From positions 1 to 52,231 of the forward strand of contig JAFEEH010000194.1 of assembly GCA_018241185.1 (NCBI GenBank): a DNA stretch of 52,231 nucleotides, given 5' to 3'. Each line of letters begins with the position of its first letter. Position 1 is the first letter of the stretch. This document shows, one piece after another, positions 13,110 to 50,137 of the stretch. The position numbers and the translations under genes were made by a program. This DNA comes from Pseudomonadota bacterium. Lineage in GTDB: Bacteria > Pseudomonadota > Gammaproteobacteria > Burkholderiales > Burkholderiaceae_C. The notes under the pieces were generated by a model. The model saw only the letters and a list, made by a program, of their open reading frames with translations, was not told the origin of the DNA and made no database searches.

Positions 13110-13148
13110 GGGCCGCATTGTGGCGGCCCTCTGGGGGCCCGCGACGCG

Positions 13149-13217
13149 AAAGTGCAATCGGCCTGCAGCGCCCGTCAGGCGGGCGCTGCAGCCGAATTCG
13201 TCACGATCGTTACGATC
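13149..13217 (+). repeat. Dispersed palindromic repeat, family A (copy 2)
   Basis: Best-preserved copy. It opens with AAAGTGCAATCGGCCTG, has a perfect 9-bp stem CAGCGCCCG-TCAGG-CGGGCGCTG, and ends with GAATTCGTCACGATCGTTAC followed by GATC. It lies between the LysR start and the SDR stop. Copies are also at 268-338 and 48327-48396. Confidence 0.8.
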
Positions 13218-13242
13218 TGCCCGAGGTCGACGACGACGACGC

Positions 13243-17992: not shown

Positions 17993-18114
17993 CGGACTTC
18001 CGGACGCAGAGGACGCAAAGATCACGCAGAGGACGCAAAAGAACAGCCCATTCAATGGAATGTCTTTTTTGCGTCCTCTGCGAAACCTCTGCGCCCTCTG
18101 CGTCCGGAAGCCCG
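17993..18114 (+). repeat. Long CGCAGAGGACGC hairpin, family C (copy 1)
   Basis: The left arm (from CGGACTTCCGGACGCAGAGG) and the right arm (ending CTCTGCGTCCGGAAGCCCG) are long imperfect inverted repeats, each holding two tandem CGCAGAGGACGCAAA-type units. The AT-richer loop includes CCATTCAATGG. The element begins 3 nt after the carbonic anhydrase stop and ends 30 nt before the thiolase start. Four more copies are at 34179-34301, 35504-35605, 37310-37442 and 40425-40548. Confidence 0.92.
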
Positions 18115-18144: not shown

Positions 18145-19329
18145 ATGTCCGAATCCATCGTCATCCTCGGTGCCGCACGCACCCCCATGGGCAGCTTCCA
18201 GGGCGACTTCGCGTCGCTGGCCGCGCACGACCTCGGCGGCGTTGCGATCCAGGCCGCGGTCGAACGCGCCGGCATCGCGCCCGACGCCGTGGGTGAAGTG
18301 CTGTTCGGTAACTGCCTGATGGCCGGCCAGGGCCAGGCGCCCGCGCGCCAGGCGGCCTACAAGGGCGGCCTGCCCGACAGCGCGGGCGCGGTCACGCTCA
18401 GCAAGATGTGCGGCTCGGCCATGAAGGCCGCGATGCTGGCGCACGACCTGCTGCTGGCCGGCACGCACGACGTCATGGTGGCGGGCGGCATGGAGAGCAT
18501 GACCAACGCGCCCTACCTCATGCTCAAGGGCCGCGGTGGCTACCGCATGGGCCACGACCGCATCTTCGACCACATGATGCTCGACGGCCTGGAAGACGCC
18601 TACCAGCCCGGACGCAGCATGGGCACCTTCGGCGAGGATTGCGCCGCCAAGTACAGCTTCACGCGCGAGCAGCAGGACGCCTTCGCCATCGCCAGCGTGC
18701 AGCGCGCGCAGCATGCGACGAAGGACGGCCTCTTCAAGGCCGAGATCGCGCCGGTGACCGTGAAGGGCCGCGGAGGCGACACCGTCGTGTCGATCGACGA
18801 AGGTCCGGGCAAGGTCAAGCTCGACAAGATCCCCACGCTCAAGCCGGCCTTCAAGAAGGACGGCGGCACCATCACCGCGGCCTCGAGCTCGTCCATCAAC
18901 GACGGCGCCGCCGCGCTGGTGATGAGCACCGCCTCGCACGCGCAGAAGATCGGCGCGAAGCCCATCGCGCGCATCGTCGCGCACAGCACCCATGCGCAGC
19001 AGCCCGAATGGTTCTCCACCGCGCCCGTGGGCGCCGTGCAGAAGCTCTTCGCCAAGACCGGCTGGGGCGTGAAGGACGTCGACCTCTGGGAAGTCAACGA
19101 GGCCTTCGCGGTCGTGCCGATGGCGCTGATGGCCGAGCTGGGCGTGTCGCACGACATCGTCAACGTGCACGGCGGCGCCTGCGCGCTGGGCCACCCGATC
19201 GGCGCCAGCGGCGCGCGCATCATGGTCACGCTGATCCACGCGCTGCAATCGCGGGGCCTGAAGCGTGGCGTCGCCACGCTGTGCATCGGCGGCGGCGAAG
19301 GCACGGCCGTGGCCATCGAAATGCTCTGA
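18145..19329 (+). CDS. Acetyl-CoA C-acetyltransferase (thiolase)
   Basis: Biosynthetic/degradative thiolase II that interconverts two acetyl-CoA and acetoacetyl-CoA. The 394-aa protein carries the acyl-accepting Cys89 (SKMCGSAMKA), His350 in GGACALGHPIGASGAR and the general base Cys380 in CIGGGEGTA, the same spacing as in well-studied thiolases. AGGAGA lies 7 nt before the ATG. In this context it could process acetoacetyl-CoA from leucine breakdown or supply polyhydroxybutyrate synthesis; no phaB or phaC is in the window, so the role is open. The family C hairpin fills the gap before it and a family B repeat follows its stop. Confidence 0.93.
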   Translation: MSESIVILGAARTPMGSFQGDFASLAAHDLGGVAIQAAVERAGIAPDAVGEVLFGNCLMAGQGQAPARQAAYKGGLPDSAGAVTLSKMCGSAMKAAMLAHDLLLAGTHDVMVAGGMESMTNAPYLMLKGRGGYRMGHDRIFDHMMLDGLEDAYQPGRSMGTFGEDCAAKYSFTREQQDAFAIASVQRAQHATKDGLFKAEIAPVTVKGRGGDTVVSIDEGPGKVKLDKIPTLKPAFKKDGGTITAASSSSINDGAAALVMSTASHAQKIGAKPIARIVAHSTHAQQPEWFSTAPVGAVQKLFAKTGWGVKDVDLWEVNEAFAVVPMALMAELGVSHDIVNVHGGACALGHPIGASGARIMVTLIHALQSRGLKRGVATLCIGGGEGTAVAIEML

Positions 19330-19388
19330 TTTTGATAGCTGCCCGCACCCGCCGGACGGGCGCTGCAGCCACTTTTCCTTCATAAAAC
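19330..19388 (-). repeat. Dispersed palindromic repeat, family B (copy 1)
   Basis: Reverse-oriented copy: TTTTGATAGCTGCCCGC, then a stem-forming CCCGCCGGACGGGCG, then GCAGCCACTTTTCCTT. It starts directly after the thiolase stop. Forward copies are at 21321-21388 and 29086-29154. Elements of this ATAGCTG-N-AAAAGTGC-like type are common between genes in Comamonadaceae, from memory rather than a search. Confidence 0.7.
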
Positions 19389-21320: not shown

Positions 21321-21388
21321 GATTTCAAGCCAAAAGTGCCTGCAACGCCCGTCCCGCGGGCGCGGGCAGCTATCGAAACCATAGCGCC
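21321..21388 (+). repeat. Dispersed palindromic repeat, family B (copy 2)
   Basis: Runs from ATTTCAAGCCAAAAGTGCCT through a GC stem (ACGCCCGTCCCGCGGGCGCGGGC) to AGCTATCGAAACCATAGCGC. It starts 8 nt after the flavoprotein stop and ends 27 nt before the acyl-CoA dehydrogenase start. Copies are at 19330-19388 (reverse) and 29086-29154. Confidence 0.8.
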
Positions 21389-21414
21389 CCACGGCGCACC
21401 CCGGAGACTGTCCC

Positions 21415-25492: not shown

Positions 25493-25495
25493 CGG

Positions 25496-27583
<2,088 letters not shown>

Positions 27584-29085: not shown

Positions 29086-29154
29086 GTTTCAAGCCAAATC
29101 GGCCTGCAACGCCCGTGGGGCGGGCGCGGGCAGCTATGAAAAAGAGAGCGCCCT
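29086..29154 (+). repeat. Dispersed palindromic repeat, family B (copy 3)
   Basis: Runs from GTTTCAAGCCAAATCGGCCT through ACGCCCGTGGGGCGGGCGCG to AGCTATGAAAAAGAGAGCGC, matching the copy at 21321-21388. It lies in the 240-nt gap between the YchJ-like gene and the DUF3047 gene. Confidence 0.78.
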
Positions 29155-29312
29155 GCGGCGGATTGTCCGCACCAGGGAGACAAAGTGATTCCTTTTGGGG
29201 GATTTATCCGCGTGCTGCGCTGCGGCACACTTTCTCTCATGCTCGCGCGCGGTCCCTTCCGGGCCGCGCCAACGCAACAACACCAAGAACCGCCATCGCC
29301 AGGGACCCGACC

Positions 29313-34162: not shown

Positions 34163-34178
34163 GCAGGACTTCCGAATG

Positions 34179-34301
34179 CGGACATCCGGACGCAGAGGAC
34201 GCAAAGGTTCCGCAGAGAACGCAAAGGAAAACAGAAAAATCTTCTTTGGATTCTTTTGCGCCCTCTGCGAAATCTTTGCGTCCTCTGCGTCCGGATGTCC
34301 G
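34179..34301 (+). repeat. Long CGCAGAGGACGC hairpin, family C (copy 2)
   Basis: Arms start with CGGACATCCGGACGCAGAGG and end with CTCTGCGTCCGGATGTCCG, each with two CGCAGAGGACGCAAAGG-like units around an AT-rich loop. The element lies between the predicted promoter (ending 34162) and the isovaleryl-CoA dehydrogenase start (34328), so it should be transcribed as the 5' untranslated leader. Confidence 0.93.
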
Positions 34302-34327
34302 ATTCCTGAACCCCAAGGAGACAACGC

Positions 34328-35500
34328 ATGAGCCAGATCGGCCTGAACTTCGACCTGGGCGAGACCATCGATTCGCTGCGCGATGCGGTGGCCGATTTCT
34401 GTGCCCACGAGATCGCGCCACGCGCCGCCGAGATCGATCGCGACAACCTGTTCCCCCACGACCTCTGGGCCAAGCTGGGCAGCCTGGGCCTGCACGGCAT
34501 GACGGTGAAAGAGGAGTACGGCGGCACCGAGCTGGGCTACCTCGCGCACATCGTGGCCATGGAAGAGGTGTCGCGTGCGTCGGCCTCCGTCGGCCTGTCT
34601 TATGGCGCGCATTCCAACCTGTGCGTGAACCAGATCCATCGCAACGGCAGCGAGGCGCAGAAGAAGAAGTACCTGCCCAAGCTGGTGAGCGGCGAGCATG
34701 TCGGCGCGCTGGCCATGAGCGAGCCCAACGCCGGCTCCGACGTGGTGAGCATGAAGCTCCGGGCCGAGAAGAAGGACGGCTACTACGTGCTCAACGGCGG
34801 CAAGATGTGGATCACCAACGGCGGCGATGCCGACACGCTGGTCATCTATGCCAAGACCGAGCCCGAGATGGGCGCGCGCGGCATGACGGCCTTCATTGTC
34901 GAGAAAGGCTTCAAGGGCTTCTCGGCCGGCACCAAGCTCGACAAGCTGGGCATGCGCGGCAGCAACACCTTCCCGCTGTTCTTCGACAACTGCGAGGTGC
35001 CCGAAGAGAACATCCTCGGCGGCGAAGGCAACGGCGCCAAGGTGCTCATGAGCGGGCTGGACTACGAGCGCGCCGTGCTCTCGGGCGGCCCGCTGGGCAT
35101 CATGGCGGCCTGCATGGACGCGGTGATCCCCTTCATCCACGACCGCAAGCAGTTCGGCCAGAGCATCGGCGAGTTCCAACTCATGCAGGGCAAGATCGCC
35201 GACATGTATTCCACCTGGCAGGCCACGCGCGCCTATGTGTACGCCGTGGGCAAGGCCTGCGACCGCAACGACCATGCGCGCACCTTCCGCAAGGACGCGG
35301 CCGGCGCCATCCTGTACTCGGCCGAGAAAGCCACCTGGATGGCCGGCGAGGCGATCCAGGCGCTGGGCGGCGTGGGCTACACCAAGGAGTTCCCGGTCGA
35401 GCGGCTGTGGCGCGATGCCAAGCTCTACGAGATCGGCGCGGGCACCTCGGAGATCCGGCGCATGCTGATCGGGCGCGAGTTGTTTGCCGAAACGTCCTGA
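34328..35500 (+). CDS. liuA: Isovaleryl-CoA dehydrogenase
   Basis: FAD enzyme oxidising isovaleryl-CoA to 3-methylcrotonyl-CoA, the first committed step after leucine transamination and decarboxylation. The 390-aa length fits. The subfamily signature is clear: the catalytic Glu is in [11 protein letters not shown] (Glu247), and the usual catalytic position near the C-terminus is Gly ([12 protein letters not shown]), as in known isovaleryl-CoA dehydrogenases. [13 protein letters not shown] and [17 protein letters not shown] are also typical. AAGGAGA precedes the ATG by 7 nt. It opens the plus-strand liu cluster and is followed 3 nt later by a family C hairpin. Confidence 0.97.
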
Positions 35501-35503
35501 ATA

Positions 35504-35605
35504 CGGACAGCCGAACGCAGAGGGCGCAGAGGTTTCGCAGAGGGCGCAAAGAAGAATTCAAAAAATTCTTTGGACTTTTTTGCGACCTCTGCGTTCGGCT
35601 GCCCG
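35504..35605 (+). repeat. Long CGCAGAGGACGC hairpin, family C (copy 3)
   Basis: Shorter copy with arms beginning CGGACAGCCGAACGCAGAGG and ending ACCTCTGCGTTCGGCTGCCCG; the paired changes (GCCGAAC/GTTCGGC) keep the stem intact relative to other copies, so base pairing looks conserved. Loop contains AATTC-AAAAA-ATTC. It starts 3 nt after the isovaleryl-CoA dehydrogenase stop and ends 23 nt before the ligase start. Confidence 0.92.
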
Positions 35606-35628
35606 ATTCCGCTTTTGGAGACGTCACG

Positions 35629-37305
<1,677 letters not shown>

Positions 37306-37309
37306 AAAG

Positions 37310-37442
37310 CGGACTTCCGGACGCAGAGGACGCAAAGGATTCGCAGAGGACGCAAAAGGGAGAAATGAATGAAGAGGAAATCTTTGGCTGTTCCTTTTGC
37401 GACTTCTGCGGAATCTTTGCGTCCTCTGCGTCCGGCTGTCCG
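37310..37442 (+). repeat. Long CGCAGAGGACGC hairpin, family C (copy 4)
   Basis: Longest copy (133 bp). Left arm starts CGGACTTCCGGACGCAGAGG; right arm ends CTCTGCGTCCGGCTGTCCG. It starts 4 nt after the ligase stop and ends 14 nt before the carboxylase beta-subunit start, so the normal ribosome binding region of that gene lies at its right edge (TTTGAGATTTCC). Confidence 0.92.
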
Positions 37443-37456
37443 AATTTGAGATTTCC

Positions 37457-39106
37457 ATGACCCAACTCGAATCCAAACTCAACCCCCGCAGCGCCGAATT
37501 CCAGGCCAACGCCACCGCGATGCGCGCGCTGGTCGACGACCTGCGCGGCCAGTTCGCCCAGGTGGAGCAGGGCGGCGGCGACGCCGCTCGGGCCAAGCAC
37601 ACGGCCCGCGGCAAGCTGCTGCCGCGCGAGCGCGTGAACCAGCTGCTCGACCCGGGAACGCCCTTCCTCGAGCTGTCGCCGCTGGCGGCTCACGGCATGT
37701 ACGACGGGGCTGCGCCCGGCGCGGGCGTCATCACCGGCATCGGCCGCGTCAATGGCGTGGACTGCGTCATCGTCTGCAACGACGCGACGGTCAAGGGCGG
37801 CACCTACTACCCCATGACGGTCAAGAAGCACCTGCGCGCCCAGGAGATCGCGGAACAGAACCGCCTGCCCTGCATCTACCTGGTCGACTCGGGCGGCGCC
37901 AATCTGCCGAACCAGGACGAGGTGTTTCCCGACCGCGAGCACTTCGGCCGCATCTTCTACAACCAGGCCAACATGAGCGCCCAGGGCATCGCGCAGATCG
38001 CGGTGGTGATGGGCTCGTGCACGGCGGGCGGCGCCTACGTGCCGGCGATGAGCGACGAGTCGATCATCGTGAAGAACCAGGGCACGATCTTCCTGGGCGG
38101 CCCGCCGCTGGTGAAGGCCGCGACCGGCGAGGTCGTCACGGCCGAAGACCTGGGCGGTGGTGACGTGCACACGCGCCTGTCGGGCGTGGCCGACCACTTG
38201 GCGCAGAACGACCTGCACGCGTTGGCGCTGGCGCGTTCGGCGGTGGCCAACCTCAATGCCCAACGAACCGTTCGCACTGAGCCTGTCGAAGTGCCGGCCC
38301 CGGCTTCGACAGGCTCAGCCCGAACGGATGGTGTGGCACCGCCCGCCTTCGACGCAGAAGAGCTGTACGGCGTGATCCCCACCGACACCCGCAAGCCCTT
38401 CGACGTGCGCGAGATCATTGCCCGCATCGTCGACGACAGCGAGTTCCACGAGTTCAAGGCGCGCTTCGGCGCCACGCTGGTCTGCGGCTTCGCGGCCATC
38501 GAGGGCATGCCGGTGGGCATCGTGGCCAACAACGGCATCCTGTTCAGCGAATCGGCGCAGAAGGGCGCGCACTTCATCGAGCTGTGCGGCCAGCGCAAGA
38601 TCCCGCTCGTGTTCCTGCAGAACATCACCGGCTTCATGGTCGGGCGCAAGTACGAGAACGAAGGCATCGCGCGCCACGGCGCCAAGATGGTGACGGCCGT
38701 CGCGACCGTGAACGTGCCCAAGTTCACCATCATCATCGGCGGCAGCTTCGGCGCAGGCAACTACGGCATGTGCGGCCGCGCGTACAGCCCGCGCTTCCTC
38801 TGGATGTGGCCCAACGCGCGCATCAGCGTGATGGGCGGCGAGCAGGCCGCGAGCGTGCTGGCCACCGTCAAGCGCGATGGCATCGAGGGCAAGGGCGGCC
38901 AGTGGAGTGCCGAGGAAGAGGAGGCCTTCAAGGCGCCGATCCGCCAGCAGTACGAAGAGCAGGGCCACCCGTATTACGCGACGGCGCGGCTGTGGGACGA
39001 CGGGATCATCGACCCGGCCGACACGCGGCGTGTGCTGGCGCTGGGCCTGGCCGCCGCGCGGCATGCGCTGATCCCGGAGCCGAAGTTCGGCGTGTTCCGC
39101 ATGTGA
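37457..39106 (+). CDS. liuB: Methylcrotonyl-CoA carboxylase, carboxyltransferase (beta) subunit
   Basis: Transfers CO2 from carboxybiotin to 3-methylcrotonyl-CoA, giving 3-methylglutaconyl-CoA. The 549-aa protein has the two crotonase-like halves of acyl-CoA carboxyltransferases: [20 protein letters not shown] and [16 protein letters not shown] in the N-terminal half, [15 protein letters not shown] and [18 protein letters not shown] in the C-terminal half. It is slightly longer than the ~535 aa typical of the family. The excess is residues about 271-291 ([20 protein letters not shown]), exactly encoded by the 60-bp family D palindrome between ANLN and [10 protein letters not shown]. The reading frame is kept. 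It is separated from the alpha subunit gene by dinB-like, liuC and DUF4126 genes. Confidence 0.96.
38268..38327. repeat. TGAGCCTGTCGAAG palindrome inside liuB, family D (copy 2)
   Basis: Two 24-nt arms (38268-38291, 38304-38327) match as an inverted repeat at 22 of 24 positions around a 12-nt loop. The total length is 60 bp, a multiple of three, and the insertion is read through in frame within liuB. The same element occurs at 22976-23036. Confidence 0.95.
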
Positions 39107-39116
39107 GGCCCGACCG

Positions 39117-39632
39117 GTGCAGCTCGCGACCTACTTCGCCGCCCTCGCGCGCTACCACGCGTGGGCCACGCACAAGCTGCTGACGCAGGACCTGGCGAGC
39201 CTGAGTGACGAGGACTGGCACCGCGACGTGCGGCTGTTCTTCGGCTCCGTGCATCGCACGGTGAACCACCTGTTGGTGGCCGACCACCTCTGGTACGCGC
39301 GCTTCGCCGACAACACCTCGCTGCAGCTCGCGCTCGATGCCGAGCTGCACAGCGACCGCGCTGAGCTCGTCGCCGCGCTGGGCGCCGTGGCGGACCGCTG
39401 GGCGCCCTGGGCCGAGGCCATCGACCCGGCGCGGCTCGACGGCGACCTGGTCTACACGCGCACCGACGGCCAGGTGGCGCGCATCCCCTATGCGCCGGCC
39501 CTCGGCCATGTGTTCAATCATGCGACCCATCACCGCGGCCAGATCACGGCCGGGGTGACGGCGATGGGCCACGAAGGCCCGTCGCTGGACTGGTCGCGCT
39601 TCCTGCAACTCGACGCGAAAACCAAGGCATGA
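39117..39632 (+). CDS. DinB family putative metal-dependent hydrolase
   Basis: The 171-aa protein resembles DinB/YfiT-like four-helix metal-binding proteins: YHAWATHKLL near the N-terminus, VNHLLVADHLWYARF with the first His ligand, and the C-terminal FNHATHHRGQITAGV with paired His ligands. Characterised relatives include thiol transferases and hydrolases; the role here is unknown. GTG start at 39117 is 10 nt after liuB, and its stop overlaps liuC by 4 nt, so it is fully embedded in the liu operon. Confidence 0.85.
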   Translation: MQLATYFAALARYHAWATHKLLTQDLASLSDEDWHRDVRLFFGSVHRTVNHLLVADHLWYARFADNTSLQLALDAELHSDRAELVAALGAVADRWAPWAEAIDPARLDGDLVYTRTDGQVARIPYAPALGHVFNHATHHRGQITAGVTAMGHEGPSLDWSRFLQLDAKTKA

Positions 39633-40420
39633 GCGACTTCACCACCCTCGAACTGCACCTGGATGGCGCCGTCGCGCGCATCTGGCTCAACCGGCCCGAG
39701 ATGCGCAACGCCATCGACGACGTGTTCATCCGCGAACTCTCGGCCGCTTTCGCGCAGGCCGAGGCCGCGCCCGAGGTGCGTGTGGTCGTACTCGGTGGCC
39801 GCGGGCCGGCGTTCTGCGCCGGCGCGAATCTGAACTGGATGAAGAAGGCGGCCGAGTACACGCAGGAACAGAACCTGCAGGACGCCGGTGGCCTGGCGAC
39901 CATGCTGCACACGCTGCACCACAGCAGCAAGCCGGTGGTCGCGCGCATCCAGGGCGACGTGTACGCGGGCGGCATGGGCATCGTGTCGGCCTGCGATATC
40001 GCCATCTCGGTCGACACGGCGAACTTTTGCCTCAGCGAGGTCAAGATCGGCCTCATCCCGGCCACCATCAGCCCCTACGTGATCCGCGCCATGGGCGCGC
40101 GTGCCGCGCAGCGCTACTTCCTCACGGCCGAGCGCTTCGGCGCGGCCGAGGCGCACCGCATCGGCCTCGTGCACGAGGTGGTTGCGGCCGACGCGCTCGA
40201 TGCGAAGGTAGCCGACATCGTCAAGTCGCTCTCGGGCGCTGCACCCGCCGCGCTGGGCGAATGCAAGCGCCTGCTGCGGGACGTGACCGGCCAGCCCATC
40301 ACCGACGAGCTGACGCAGGAGACAGTGCGCCGCATCGCCGCCATCCGCGCCACCGACGAGGCGCGCGAGGGGCTGCGGTCCTTCCTCGAAAAGCGCAAGC
40401 CGTCGTGGTTGCTTTCCTGA
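39629..40420 (+). CDS. liuC: Methylglutaconyl-CoA hydratase (enoyl-CoA hydratase family)
   Basis: Crotonase-fold enzyme expected to hydrate 3-methylglutaconyl-CoA to HMG-CoA. The 263-aa protein shows the oxyanion-hole segments AFCAGANLNWMK and GDVYAGGMGIVSACDIAIS, and SEVKIGLIPATISPYV with a candidate catalytic Glu in SEVK. The first catalytic Glu of mitochondrial crotonase is not at its usual place, as in other LiuC proteins that read GGxGLVxACD. Function is assigned from context between both carboxylase subunit genes. It overlaps the DinB-like gene by 4 nt and is followed 4 nt later by a family C hairpin. Confidence 0.9.
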   Translation: MSDFTTLELHLDGAVARIWLNRPEMRNAIDDVFIRELSAAFAQAEAAPEVRVVVLGGRGPAFCAGANLNWMKKAAEYTQEQNLQDAGGLATMLHTLHHSSKPVVARIQGDVYAGGMGIVSACDIAISVDTANFCLSEVKIGLIPATISPYVIRAMGARAAQRYFLTAERFGAAEAHRIGLVHEVVAADALDAKVADIVKSLSGAAPAALGECKRLLRDVTGQPITDELTQETVRRIAAIRATDEAREGLRSFLEKRKPSWLLS

Positions 40421-40424
40421 AATG

Positions 40425-40548
40425 CGGACATCCGGACGCAGAGGACGCAAAGGTTTCGCAGAGGCCGCAAAAGGACATCCAAAGCATGAATCGGTTTCTT
40501 ATGCGTCCTCTGCGTCACTTTGGTTTTTCTTCTGCGTCCGGTAGTCCG
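40425..40548 (+). repeat. Long CGCAGAGGACGC hairpin, family C (copy 5)
   Basis: The left arm begins CGGACATCCGGACGCAGAGG; the right arm is more diverged (TTCTGCGTCCGGTAGTCCG at the end). It starts 4 nt after liuC and ends 20 nt before the DUF4126 gene. Confidence 0.9.
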
Positions 40549-48326: not shown

Positions 48327-48396
48327 GATCGTAACGAACGTGACGAATTCGGCCGCAGCGCCCGTCTGGCGGGCGCTGCAGGCCGATTGCACTTTG
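48327..48396 (-). repeat. Dispersed palindromic repeat, family A (copy 3)
   Basis: Opposite-strand copy: GATCGTAACGAACGTGACGAATTCGG, then the stem CAGCGCCCG-TCTGG-CGGGCGCTG, then GGCCGATTGCACTTTG. It fills the 100-nt gap between the convergent HMG-CoA lyase and kinase/phosphatase genes. Confidence 0.8.
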
Positions 48397-48400
48397 GCCT

Positions 48401-50137
48401 TCAGCGCCCGAATGCGCGCAGCCCGAGCAGCAATACGACCGCCGCTGCGAGCATCAGCGTGCTCCACTGCCAGAAGCGAACCGGGTGCCGCTCCACCAGC
48501 GGCAGCGTGCCGGTGCGCAGGAAGGCGGGCCCTGGCTGGTGCAGGTCGAACACGAACTCGGACACCGTTTCCTGCCGCCGCACTGGGTCCGGCTGCAGGG
48601 CCTTGTGCAGCACCGCGTCCAGCCAGGGCGGCAGCTCGGGCCGGAACTGCCGCAGCGGCACGTAGCGCAGCCGGCGCACGTCGGCTGGTGTGCGCACGCG
48701 CGCGGCATCCAGGCCGTAGGGCAACTGGCCAGTGAGCAGGTGGTAGGTGAGCACGGCCAGCGCGAACAGGTCCGAGCGCTCGCTGCCGCCGGGGCCGACG
48801 AAGTACTCCGGCGCGGTGTACTGCAGCGTCCCGACCGGCGCAGCCGATTCCGGCGCGGCACCGGCCTCCGCCAGGCCCGCCACATGCACGGCACCGAGGT
48901 CGATGAGGCGCGCGGTGCCGCTGCGGTCGATCATCACGTTCTCCAGGCGCAGGTCCTGGTGCAGCATCTCGCGCCGGTGCAGCGCCTGCAGCCCCTGCGC
49001 GATTTGCGCGACCAGCCTGCGCACGGCATCGAGGGACGGCCGGGGATGGTCCACCTGCCACTGCGCGAGGGTGCTGCCCTCGATGTACGCCATCGCCACG
49101 CAAAGGTGGCGGCGCGGGCGCTCGGCCGCCGCGGCGCGCACTACGTGCGGGCTGTCGATGCGCCGCGCCACCCATTCCTCCAGCGCGAAGCGGTCGAGTT
49201 GCGCCGGCTGCTCGCGCAACTCGGAGGCCGGCACTTTCAGCGCCGCGGGCTCGCCGGTGGCCTCGTCGGTCGCCAGCCAGACCTGGCTGCGCGCGCTCTG
49301 GTGCAGTTCGCGCACGAGCGTGAAGCCCTCGAAGGACTGCCCGGCCGACAGCGCGGGCGGCCACGCCAGGCCTTCGCGGGCGGCGATGTGCAGCGGGGCG
49401 TCGGGCGGCGGCAGTGCGTCCACGCGCAGCAGCTGCACGGTGGCGTCGTCCTCGCTGCCGCGCGCGCGGGCCTGCGCGACCAGCGCCTGCGCCGCGGCAT
49501 CGAGCGCATCGCCGCAGCCCGCGAGCGCCGCCTGCACGGTGGCAACGTCGAGGCCGGCATGAGCGCCGTCGGTGGCCAGCAGGTACAACTCGCCGGCCTC
49601 GGCTTCCCAGCAGTCGTAGTCGATCTCCAGGTGCGGCCCGACGCCGAGCGCGCGGGCCAGGTACGACTCCGCGGATGACAGGTGGACGCGGTGGTCCTGC
49701 GTGAGCTGCTCTAGCGCCTGCGCATGCACCCGGTACACCCGCGCATCGCCCACGTGCAGCAGGTGCAGCCGCCGGCCCTTGAGGACCAGGGCGCTGAAGG
49801 TGCAGACCTGGCCGCGGTCGCGCTCGAAACGGGCATCGCCACGCAGGTTCTGCGCATGCAGCCAGGCGTTGGTGGCGGCCAGCACCTGCTGCGCCGAGCG
49901 GCGCGTGGACCAGGCCTCCGACGTGGCGTAGTAGTCGTCGAGGAAGCAGCGCACCGCCGCGGCGCTCGCGACCTGGCTCACGGCACTGGAGCCGATGCCG
50001 TCGGCCAGCGCGAGCGCAATGCCCTTCGTGGCCAGCAGGTGGCCGGCGGGCAGCATCGCGCCGTGGAAGTCCTGGTTCGGTCCCGCGTGGCCCGCAGCGG
50101 AATGCTGGCCGATGGCGACGCGCAGGCTGTCCGCCAT
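48401..50137 (-). CDS. Bifunctional PP2C phosphatase / Ser-Thr protein kinase
   Basis: The 578-aa protein joins an N-terminal PP2C-type phosphatase (residues 1-245: QDFHGAML, ALADGIGSS, LLHVGDARVYR, LATDGAHAGL, GSEDDATVQLLRV) to a C-terminal protein kinase (about 265-545: AALKVP with the ATP Lys, MLHQDLRLENVMID catalytic loop, RLIDLGAVHV metal loop) and one C-terminal membrane helix (about 556-575). HQD for HRD and DLG for DFG are seen; HQD is usual in this family. It lies in the nitrite assimilation operon, 11 nt after the transporter gene; the orthologous position in Pseudomonas (PA1782) also holds a Ser/Thr kinase. Its substrate is unknown. Confidence 0.9.
   Translation of the reverse strand: MADSLRVAIGQHSAAGHAGPNQDFHGAMLPAGHLLATKGIALALADGIGSSAVSQVASAAAVRCFLDDYYATSEAWSTRRSAQQVLAATNAWLHAQNLRGDARFERDRGQVCTFSALVLKGRRLHLLHVGDARVYRVHAQALEQLTQDHRVHLSSAESYLARALGVGPHLEIDYDCWEAEAGELYLLATDGAHAGLDVATVQAALAGCGDALDAAAQALVAQARARGSEDDATVQLLRVDALPPPDAPLHIAAREGLAWPPALSAGQSFEGFTLVRELHQSARSQVWLATDEATGEPAALKVPASELREQPAQLDRFALEEWVARRIDSPHVVRAAAAERPRRHLCVAMAYIEGSTLAQWQVDHPRPSLDAVRRLVAQIAQGLQALHRREMLHQDLRLENVMIDRSGTARLIDLGAVHVAGLAEAGAAPESAAPVGTLQYTAPEYFVGPGGSERSDLFALAVLTYHLLTGQLPYGLDAARVRTPADVRRLRYVPLRQFRPELPPWLDAVLHKALQPDPVRRQETVSEFVFDLHQPGPAFLRTGTLPLVERHPVRFWQWSTLMLAAAVVLLLGLRAFGR

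Follow-up and report, generated by a model that had tools for sequence, protein, structure and literature searches.

The window analyzed here is a stretch of 52,231 nucleotides (nt) of contig JAFEEH010000194.1 from a Pseudomonadota bacterium of the Burkholderiaceae_C (assembly GCA_018241185.1), and it contains five large solo hairpins, each with two inverted arms of tandem short units, which lie in the gaps between genes. These hairpins are described together with a related element elsewhere in the same genome, a cassette that carries a gene of the GxxExxY family. Copy 1 (17993-18114, 123 bits) has arms at approximately 17993-18040 and 18067-18114, copy 2 (34179-34301, 132 bits) belongs to an inverted repeat reaching about 34170-34310, copy 3 (35504-35605, 63 bits) has a shorter right arm and represents the sub-type CCGAACGCAGAGGGCGC, copy 4 (37310-37442, 127 bits) lies in an inverted repeat at about 37302-37359 and 37393-37450, and copy 5 (40425-40548, 104 bits) has a partly diverged right arm; no strand was assigned to any of them.

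The five hairpins had been proposed in a first-pass annotation of the window, and unit matches and folding show that they exceed chance by far. With up to three mismatches, CGCAGAGGACGCAAAG has 18 matches in the window, all inside the five copies, whereas shuffled sequences have 1.13 on average and never more than 4; the fold of every copy is more stable than those of 200 shuffles (-53.7 to -93.6 kcal/mol, z-scores from -6.6 to -16.8). The regular spacing reported by the same annotation was also confirmed by measurement: copies 1, 3, 4 and 5 begin 3, 3, 4 and 4 nt after the upstream stop codon, 132 nt separate copy 2 from a divergent gene, and the next start codon follows copies 1-5 after 30, 26, 23, 14 and 20 nt, respectively. 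As had been claimed, every copy has an acyl-CoA-type gene next to it on one or both sides, with thiolase, acyl-CoA dehydrogenase, AMP-binding ligase, carboxyl transferase and enoyl-CoA hydratase among these neighbours (the names ivd, liuB and liuC for window genes are taken over from the first-pass annotation). Among the remaining neighbours are genes for a carbonic anhydrase, an AraC-type regulator and a DUF4126 protein. A scan of the window against Rfam at the gathering score gave no family match to the hairpins, a thiamine pyrophosphate (TPP) riboswitch being its sole match.

The hairpins are not confined to the window. A 16-mer unit (at most one mismatch) has 116 matches in the 5.34-Mb genome to which the window belongs (G000, 269 contigs) and its reversed control has none, and a covariance model built from 20 copies gives at least 146 matches, both strands counted. 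At least 60 distinct elements, including the GxxExxY cassette, were located with their flanks. Two of the 60 lie at contig edges, and 58 (again with the cassette) were placed relative to neighbouring genes called with a codon-usage script, which gave spurious distances in two cases (-436 for the cassette, because its own gene was mistaken for the upstream neighbour, and -61 at locus L212). Of these, 53 are located between co-directional, three between divergent and two between convergent genes, compared with 45, 12 and 11 background gaps of at least 60 nt (53:5 versus 45:23, Fisher p 0.001; versus 102:29 for all background gaps, p 0.025). The median distances are 9 nt after the stop codon and 20.5 nt before the start codon, and the earlier statement that this is not a random repeat is right, the placement being non-random throughout the genome. 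After subtraction of the element, the gaps at 52 co-directional solo sites have a median length of 28.5 nt versus length-weighted background medians of 133-190 nt, which rules out insertion in proportion to intergenic length. In size the hairpin sites resemble the average operon gap (unweighted background median 38 nt, 14-76 nt) rather than the long gaps in which most intergenic DNA resides. The inverted repeat is frequently extended outward by GAATA/TATTC-like bases, and the outer variant letter matches between the two arms in 47 of the 52 scorable elements among the 60 in G000, where 36 would be expected. Some hairpins stand about 1 kb apart and flank a single gene (L014/L221, L018/L019 and L203), as in the liu cluster of the window.

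One hairpin of G000, outside the window and of the same flavour, holds the sole PF13366 match of this genome in its loop, between trpE and trpG. The encoded protein is a member of the GxxExxY family (TIGR04256, 137.5 bits with a cut-off of 35; PF13366, 134.1 bits with a cut-off of 22) and matches only these two models at an E-value of 0.001. In the cassette, which is about 0.5 kb long, the GxxExxY gene is enclosed by two inverted arms, each a tandem array of 8-10 nt units (general unit C[AG]C[ACG][AG]A[GT]); in its genus form it has no space for any other gene, and its inverted ends are common to the solo hairpins. All six carriers in the genus have one PF13366 match each, always at the trpE-trpG site and with arms of the local flavour. 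In G000 the frame at C106:45602-46078 (L009, L031) is open through the left arm, and a possible ATGA start overlaps the trpE stop codon, so the GxxExxY protein may be extended N-terminally by a translated left arm. Among 115 loci tested, trpE lies immediately upstream of the GxxExxY gene in six further ones (L122, L133, L138, L163, L164 and L169), and in L037, L040, L041, L053 and L056 the distance to an upstream trpG is about 1 kb.

The residues G, E, D, E, K, Q, N and F are invariant in 28 GxxExxY sequences, and E22, D62, E72 and K74 are invariant in an alignment of 50 members drawn from 76 of 80 loci, with the stop-containing L119, L127, L177 and L188 omitted. The predicted structure is confident (predicted local distance difference test score 96.6). 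A viral PD-(D/E)XK nuclease model was matched at an E-value of 4.6e-8, and the best fold matches in the PDB are an Archaeoglobus Holliday-junction resolvase (E-value 5.8e-3) and SSO0001 (6.6e-3), which we take to be a Cas4-type nuclease; a sequence search up to an E-value of 1 gave no solved structure similar to GxxExxY. The conserved residues and the predicted fold fit a PD-(D/E)XK nuclease, and nuclease activity is predicted for these proteins. In the genus carriers, the ratio of nonsynonymous to synonymous substitution rates (dN/dS) of this gene is 0.02-0.30. A search with one query protein found GxxExxY in six of 72,556 plasmid records, and a pattern scan of viral_contigs revealed five relatives; given these figures, carriage by plasmids or phages is unlikely to be the chief route of spread.

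The presence of the gene and the presence of the hairpins coincide. PF13366 was found in six of 15 genomes of the genus, and the same six have at least 141-150 covariance-model matches (both strands), whereas the other nine have none (Fisher 2e-4, kinship ignored). A wider survey of the order matched PF13366 in 44 of 300 genomes. At least five matches to CGCARAGGN{0,2}CGCARAG were found in 21 of these 44 compared with nine of the 256 genomes lacking the family, and at least five matches of the CAGAT flavour in seven compared with three; for either flavour the figures are 25 of 44 versus 12 of 256 (Fisher 6e-16, kinship ignored). PF13366 was also matched in three named control genomes.

The same arrangement of gene and arms was detected in other phyla, using the best 80 of 592 confirmed GxxExxY loci. 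By record title, these come from Bacteroidetes, Verrucomicrobia, Acidobacteria, Chloroflexi, Planctomycetes, cyanobacteria, Myxococcales, two archaeal bins and others. The gene is flanked on both sides by two or more units in the correct orientation in 26 of 30 order loci and 42 of 80 cross-phylum loci, compared with two of 505 control windows, and by three or more in 19 of 30, 30 of 80 and none of 505; two or more units on the wrong strands occur in none of the order loci and nine of the cross-phylum loci. In an alignment test, 51 of 79 loci scored above the 99th percentile of the controls (a short flank led to the omission of L122; L131 and L143, also short in the flank, were retained). Arms are present at the archaeal locus L127, the frame of which contains a stop codon, and the alignment test found none at the archaeal locus L176. 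Away from the GxxExxY locus, at least five CAGAG-triple matches occur in 15 of 33 genomes of the cross-phylum records and at least five control matches in one, according to a tally made by eye that left out the L182 genome and includes some simple CAGAG repeats. In three genomes of two other families, 15 of 20 stretches contained, by the unit rule, a solo hairpin with paired arms and a 57-138 nt loop, one extra pairing with a loop of 496 nt being disregarded as spurious, and the solo-hairpin arms of G067 and G023 are similar to their cassette arms as judged by eye. Two Bacteroidota loci that failed the tandem-unit test (L118 and L135) share a different, GAGCTACTCTTT-like inverted repeat in their flanks.

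Within the genus, hairpins occupy the same sites in different carriers. The gap of copy 2 contains an element in the orthologous gaps of G300, G305, G306, G307 and G309, and all four liu gaps (copies 2-5) hold hairpins in G300, G305, G306 and G307; of the three gaps compared in G309, gaps 2 and 5 have a hairpin and gap 3 a remnant. No hairpin was present in the liu gaps compared in non-carriers (five genomes at gap 2, seven at gap 3, one at gap 4 and one at gap 5). A random draw of 15 sites gave hairpins at 12 in G300 and at 13 in G305, 12 of the latter being of the CGCGAAGG flavour (L222 in G300 and L221 in G305 were scored as hairpin-free, and L212 is the right part of an element only). The flavours differ between carriers at shared positions: in the gap of copy 3, G307 has the same sub-type as the window, G300 another one, and G305 and G306 have the CGCGAAGG flavour. 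Throughout the genome, CGCGAAGGNCGCGAA has 158 matches in G305, 161 in G306 and 126 in G309, compared with 17 in G000, seven in G300, six in G307 and 0-4 in non-carriers. Relics of the other flavour were found on both sides, namely a G000 element of the CGCGAAGG type (L205:571) and a G305 copy of the CGCAGAGG type at the L212 site. These comparisons also bear on copy 3, for which paired changes in the two arms had been taken as a sign of selection on an RNA stem. The changes are indeed present in both arms, and the CCGAACGCAGAGGGCGC sub-type with these changes recurs at other sites and in relatives, but they do not point specifically to RNA, because whole elements of another flavour, with both arms changed jointly, occupy the same sites in related species.

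The distribution of flavours departs from the relationships of the genomes. G307 and G309 are sisters with a support of 1.0 in an unrooted tree of ivd and the ligase gene from 14 of the 15 genomes (G304 had no ivd match of sufficient length), and the grouping of G305 and G306 with G000 and G300 in this tree has a support of only 0.72. The synonymous rate (dS) of trpE is 0.10-0.25 for all pairs and is lowest between G307 and G309 (0.104), yet these two differ in flavour and their nuclease genes differ with a dS of 0.74. For the nuclease gene, dS is 0.74-1.0 between flavour groups and 0.26-0.28 within them. In 100-column windows, G307 and G309 are 94-100% identical in trpE close to the border, 63-82% identical from the trpE stop to the trpG start, and 95-100% identical again beyond that point. 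A drop over this stretch is common to pairs of unlike flavour, whereas pairs of like flavour retain 88-97% identity between the same two points. A second drop, at columns 2500-2700 on the downstream side of trpG, is seen when G000 is paired with G305, G307 or G309, and from column 3200 on, at their far ends, the loci differ from one another. Judged from these comparisons, the unit flavour in this genus tracks the nuclease allele rather than the species tree, in both arms and at shared sites, and the nuclease cassette has evidently been exchanged with borders at the ends of the element.

We consider it probable, with appreciable room for doubt, that the hairpins belong, as non-autonomous members, to a two-component hairpin replicator with the GxxExxY nuclease and are homogenised in place. 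This reading draws on several kinds of sequence evidence: the gene is paired with arms and co-occurs with solo hairpins, the hairpins have a characteristic placement, species share sites, and the flavour follows the nuclease allele. From this evidence we infer that hairpins are cut, copied and moved. The solo form comprises only the arms and a short loop and resides mainly between co-directional genes just 3' of a stop codon. The nuclease would recognise a cruciform or hairpin of its own flavour and cut such a hairpin or an ill-matched copy; repair would then copy a matching hairpin into the cut site by gene conversion, and after exchange of the cassette the dispersed copies would be rewritten to the new flavour. 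The broader proposal, which we put forward tentatively and with less confidence, is that an unrecognised class of hairpin elements, present in many bacterial phyla and possibly archaea, has GxxExxY proteins as its enzymes, each enzyme maintaining tens of dispersed intra-operon hairpins in its own flavour and rewriting them in place after allele replacement.

Several observations weigh against this interpretation. The co-occurrence in the genus may reflect a single evolutionary event, and 12 of the 256 order genomes without PF13366 nevertheless have at least five repeats; half of the 44 genomes with the family (22) have a single match, and the others have 2-5, some of them fragments. Among the cross-phylum loci, 38 of 80 failed the test for units on both sides, and by alignment 28 of 79 stayed at or below the 99th percentile of the controls. 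The best PDB fold matches are weak. The genome-wide count of the CGCAGAGG flavour covers G000 only, the sister relationship of G307 and G309 is based on trpE and on ivd plus the ligase gene, and the site-by-site comparison of these two genomes comprises liu gaps 2 and 5. None of the sites compared was a clean empty one with a target duplication: the outermost bases of the hairpins proved to belong to the inverted repeat when such duplications were sought, hairpin-free sites in carriers partly resemble losses with remnants of the outer ends, and the gaps of non-carriers are too diverged for an empty-site comparison. Finally, the gap-length result rules out only length-proportional insertion, because the leftover gaps resemble the average co-directional gap.

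The strongest competing explanation is a function for the host at the RNA level, in which the hairpins are intercistronic mRNA signals (for stability, RNase processing or subunit ratio) that are kept because they are useful, with GxxExxY as a processing factor. The placement between co-directional genes right after the stop codon, the very stable RNA folds, the retention of hairpins at 12 of 15 sites in G300 and 13 of 15 in G305, and some paired changes in the arms are all in line with this. The four-species alignment of one site gave a mixed picture: double changes do occur (7 of 47 pairs), but 17 of 47 pairs are broken in one sequence, with a covariation term of +0.69. A coordinated switch of flavour at many sites among close species is difficult to achieve by point mutation and selection, the genes next to the hairpins are of many kinds, and a gene inside the hairpin in different phyla resembles a mobile element carrying its own enzyme. 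We regard an RNA-level role as unlikely but keep it in play because the placement is so regular, though the pairing at the one site was mixed. The narrower version of this idea, that the hairpins are RNA elements of a coordinated acyl-CoA catabolic gene set, was suggested by the five window copies, all of which adjoin an acyl-CoA-type gene on at least one side. It is contradicted by the whole genome, where the copies are spread over gene classes, an outcome that the first-pass annotation had itself named as counting against its proposal: 110 neighbour proteins match 163 Pfam families, the most frequent of the 25 families listed being ABC_tran (13), BPD_transp_2 (7) and BPD_transp_1 (7), with acyl-CoA dehydrogenase (4) and thiolase (3) in the minority. 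This diversity rules out an acyl-CoA regulon, to which we assign practically no probability.

Inverted ends, numerous copies and extragenic location would also be expected of an ordinary repeat similar to miniature inverted-repeat transposable elements (MITEs), moved by a different transposase with GxxExxY as a passenger, and the 12 genomes with repeats and no PF13366 can be counted in its favour. This is improbable in view of the same protein family inside the arms over many phyla, the way in which hairpin presence and flavour follow GxxExxY, and the 0.5-kb genus element that accommodates no second gene. A still smaller chance, in fact a very slight one, is given to repetitive extragenic palindromes (REPs) or REP doublets forming hairpins (REPINs) of a REP-associated tyrosine transposase (RAYT, Y1 transposase) system. 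Such repeats are likewise palindromic, extragenic and present in tens of copies, and G000 has one PF01797 match, but the locus of this match contains scattered one-mismatch CGCAGAGG 8-mers and no tandem-unit arms, and the enzyme within the element belongs to PF13366, with matches to this family and TIGR04256 alone; on these grounds a RAYT repeat was ruled out.

Among known systems, REPIN-RAYT is the closest in behaviour to the two-component hairpin replicator that we favour. It is described as comprising an extragenic population of gene-free hairpins, in which the spacer varies, and an enzyme gene on the chromosome that is flanked by the same repeat and rarely found on plasmids (PMC8049555, PMC3116915). 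The elements described here share the extragenic gene-free hairpins and the repeat-flanked chromosomal enzyme gene, which is rare on plasmids here too. The combination of a single-copy enzyme gene with tens of elements is a further likeness within the genus, but it is not general in the order. The differences are that the enzyme here is of the PD-(D/E)XK type and unrelated to Y1, that the arms consist of tandem 8-10 nt units and lie between co-directional genes, and that the cassette is swapped with matching flavour at shared sites. A GTAG-type tetranucleotide at the foot of the hairpin is a feature of REPIN-RAYT elements. Membership in the REPIN-RAYT class fails because the enzyme inside the element is PF13366 and not Y1. 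MITEs of insertion sequences are short elements with ends common to a coding form, and the hairpins resemble them in this respect; however, their coding form has a nuclease-like gene and no known transposase, and no target duplication was established. Homing endonuclease genes lie inside their own recognition element and are exchanged as cassettes, much as the GxxExxY gene lies within a presumed recognition element and its cassette is exchanged with sharp borders, but here tens of dispersed gene-free copies have the matching flavour. Rpn proteins are also PD-(D/E)XK members, and we know of no link between them and hairpin repeats. They have been termed recombination-promoting nucleases (PMC5350276, PMC10327210). 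We rate the enzyme class, the element build and the in-place switching as together matching no known kind; by analogy alone, the system would be a REPIN-RAYT variant.

In the open-access PMC literature, as far as its accessible portions extend, no function and no link to repeats was found for GxxExxY (TIGR04256/PF13366, PDDEXK_3), and the repeat motifs on both strands have no report from bacteria, surfacing in animal papers only. If the proposed reading is true, it would assign a role to this widespread nuclease-like family, would explain dispersed hairpins with common unit motifs across distant phyla, and would represent a second, unrelated solution to the task performed by REPIN-RAYT. The swap of nuclease alleles with matching flavour at shared sites makes the upkeep of short-repeat uniformity in bacterial genomes testable.

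Other features of the window include the TPP riboswitch at 25494-25602 (60.1 bits), which lies upstream of a gene called at 25697, and a separate second repeat family, a GCTGCAGCGCCCGTC...GGGCGCTGCAG-like palindrome. Repeats of this family are located at 268-342, 13135-13223, 19323-19376, 21323-21396, 29087-29160 and 48327-48409, and sequence resembling the same palindrome adjoins some of the hairpins elsewhere, for example at L016, L028 and L222.

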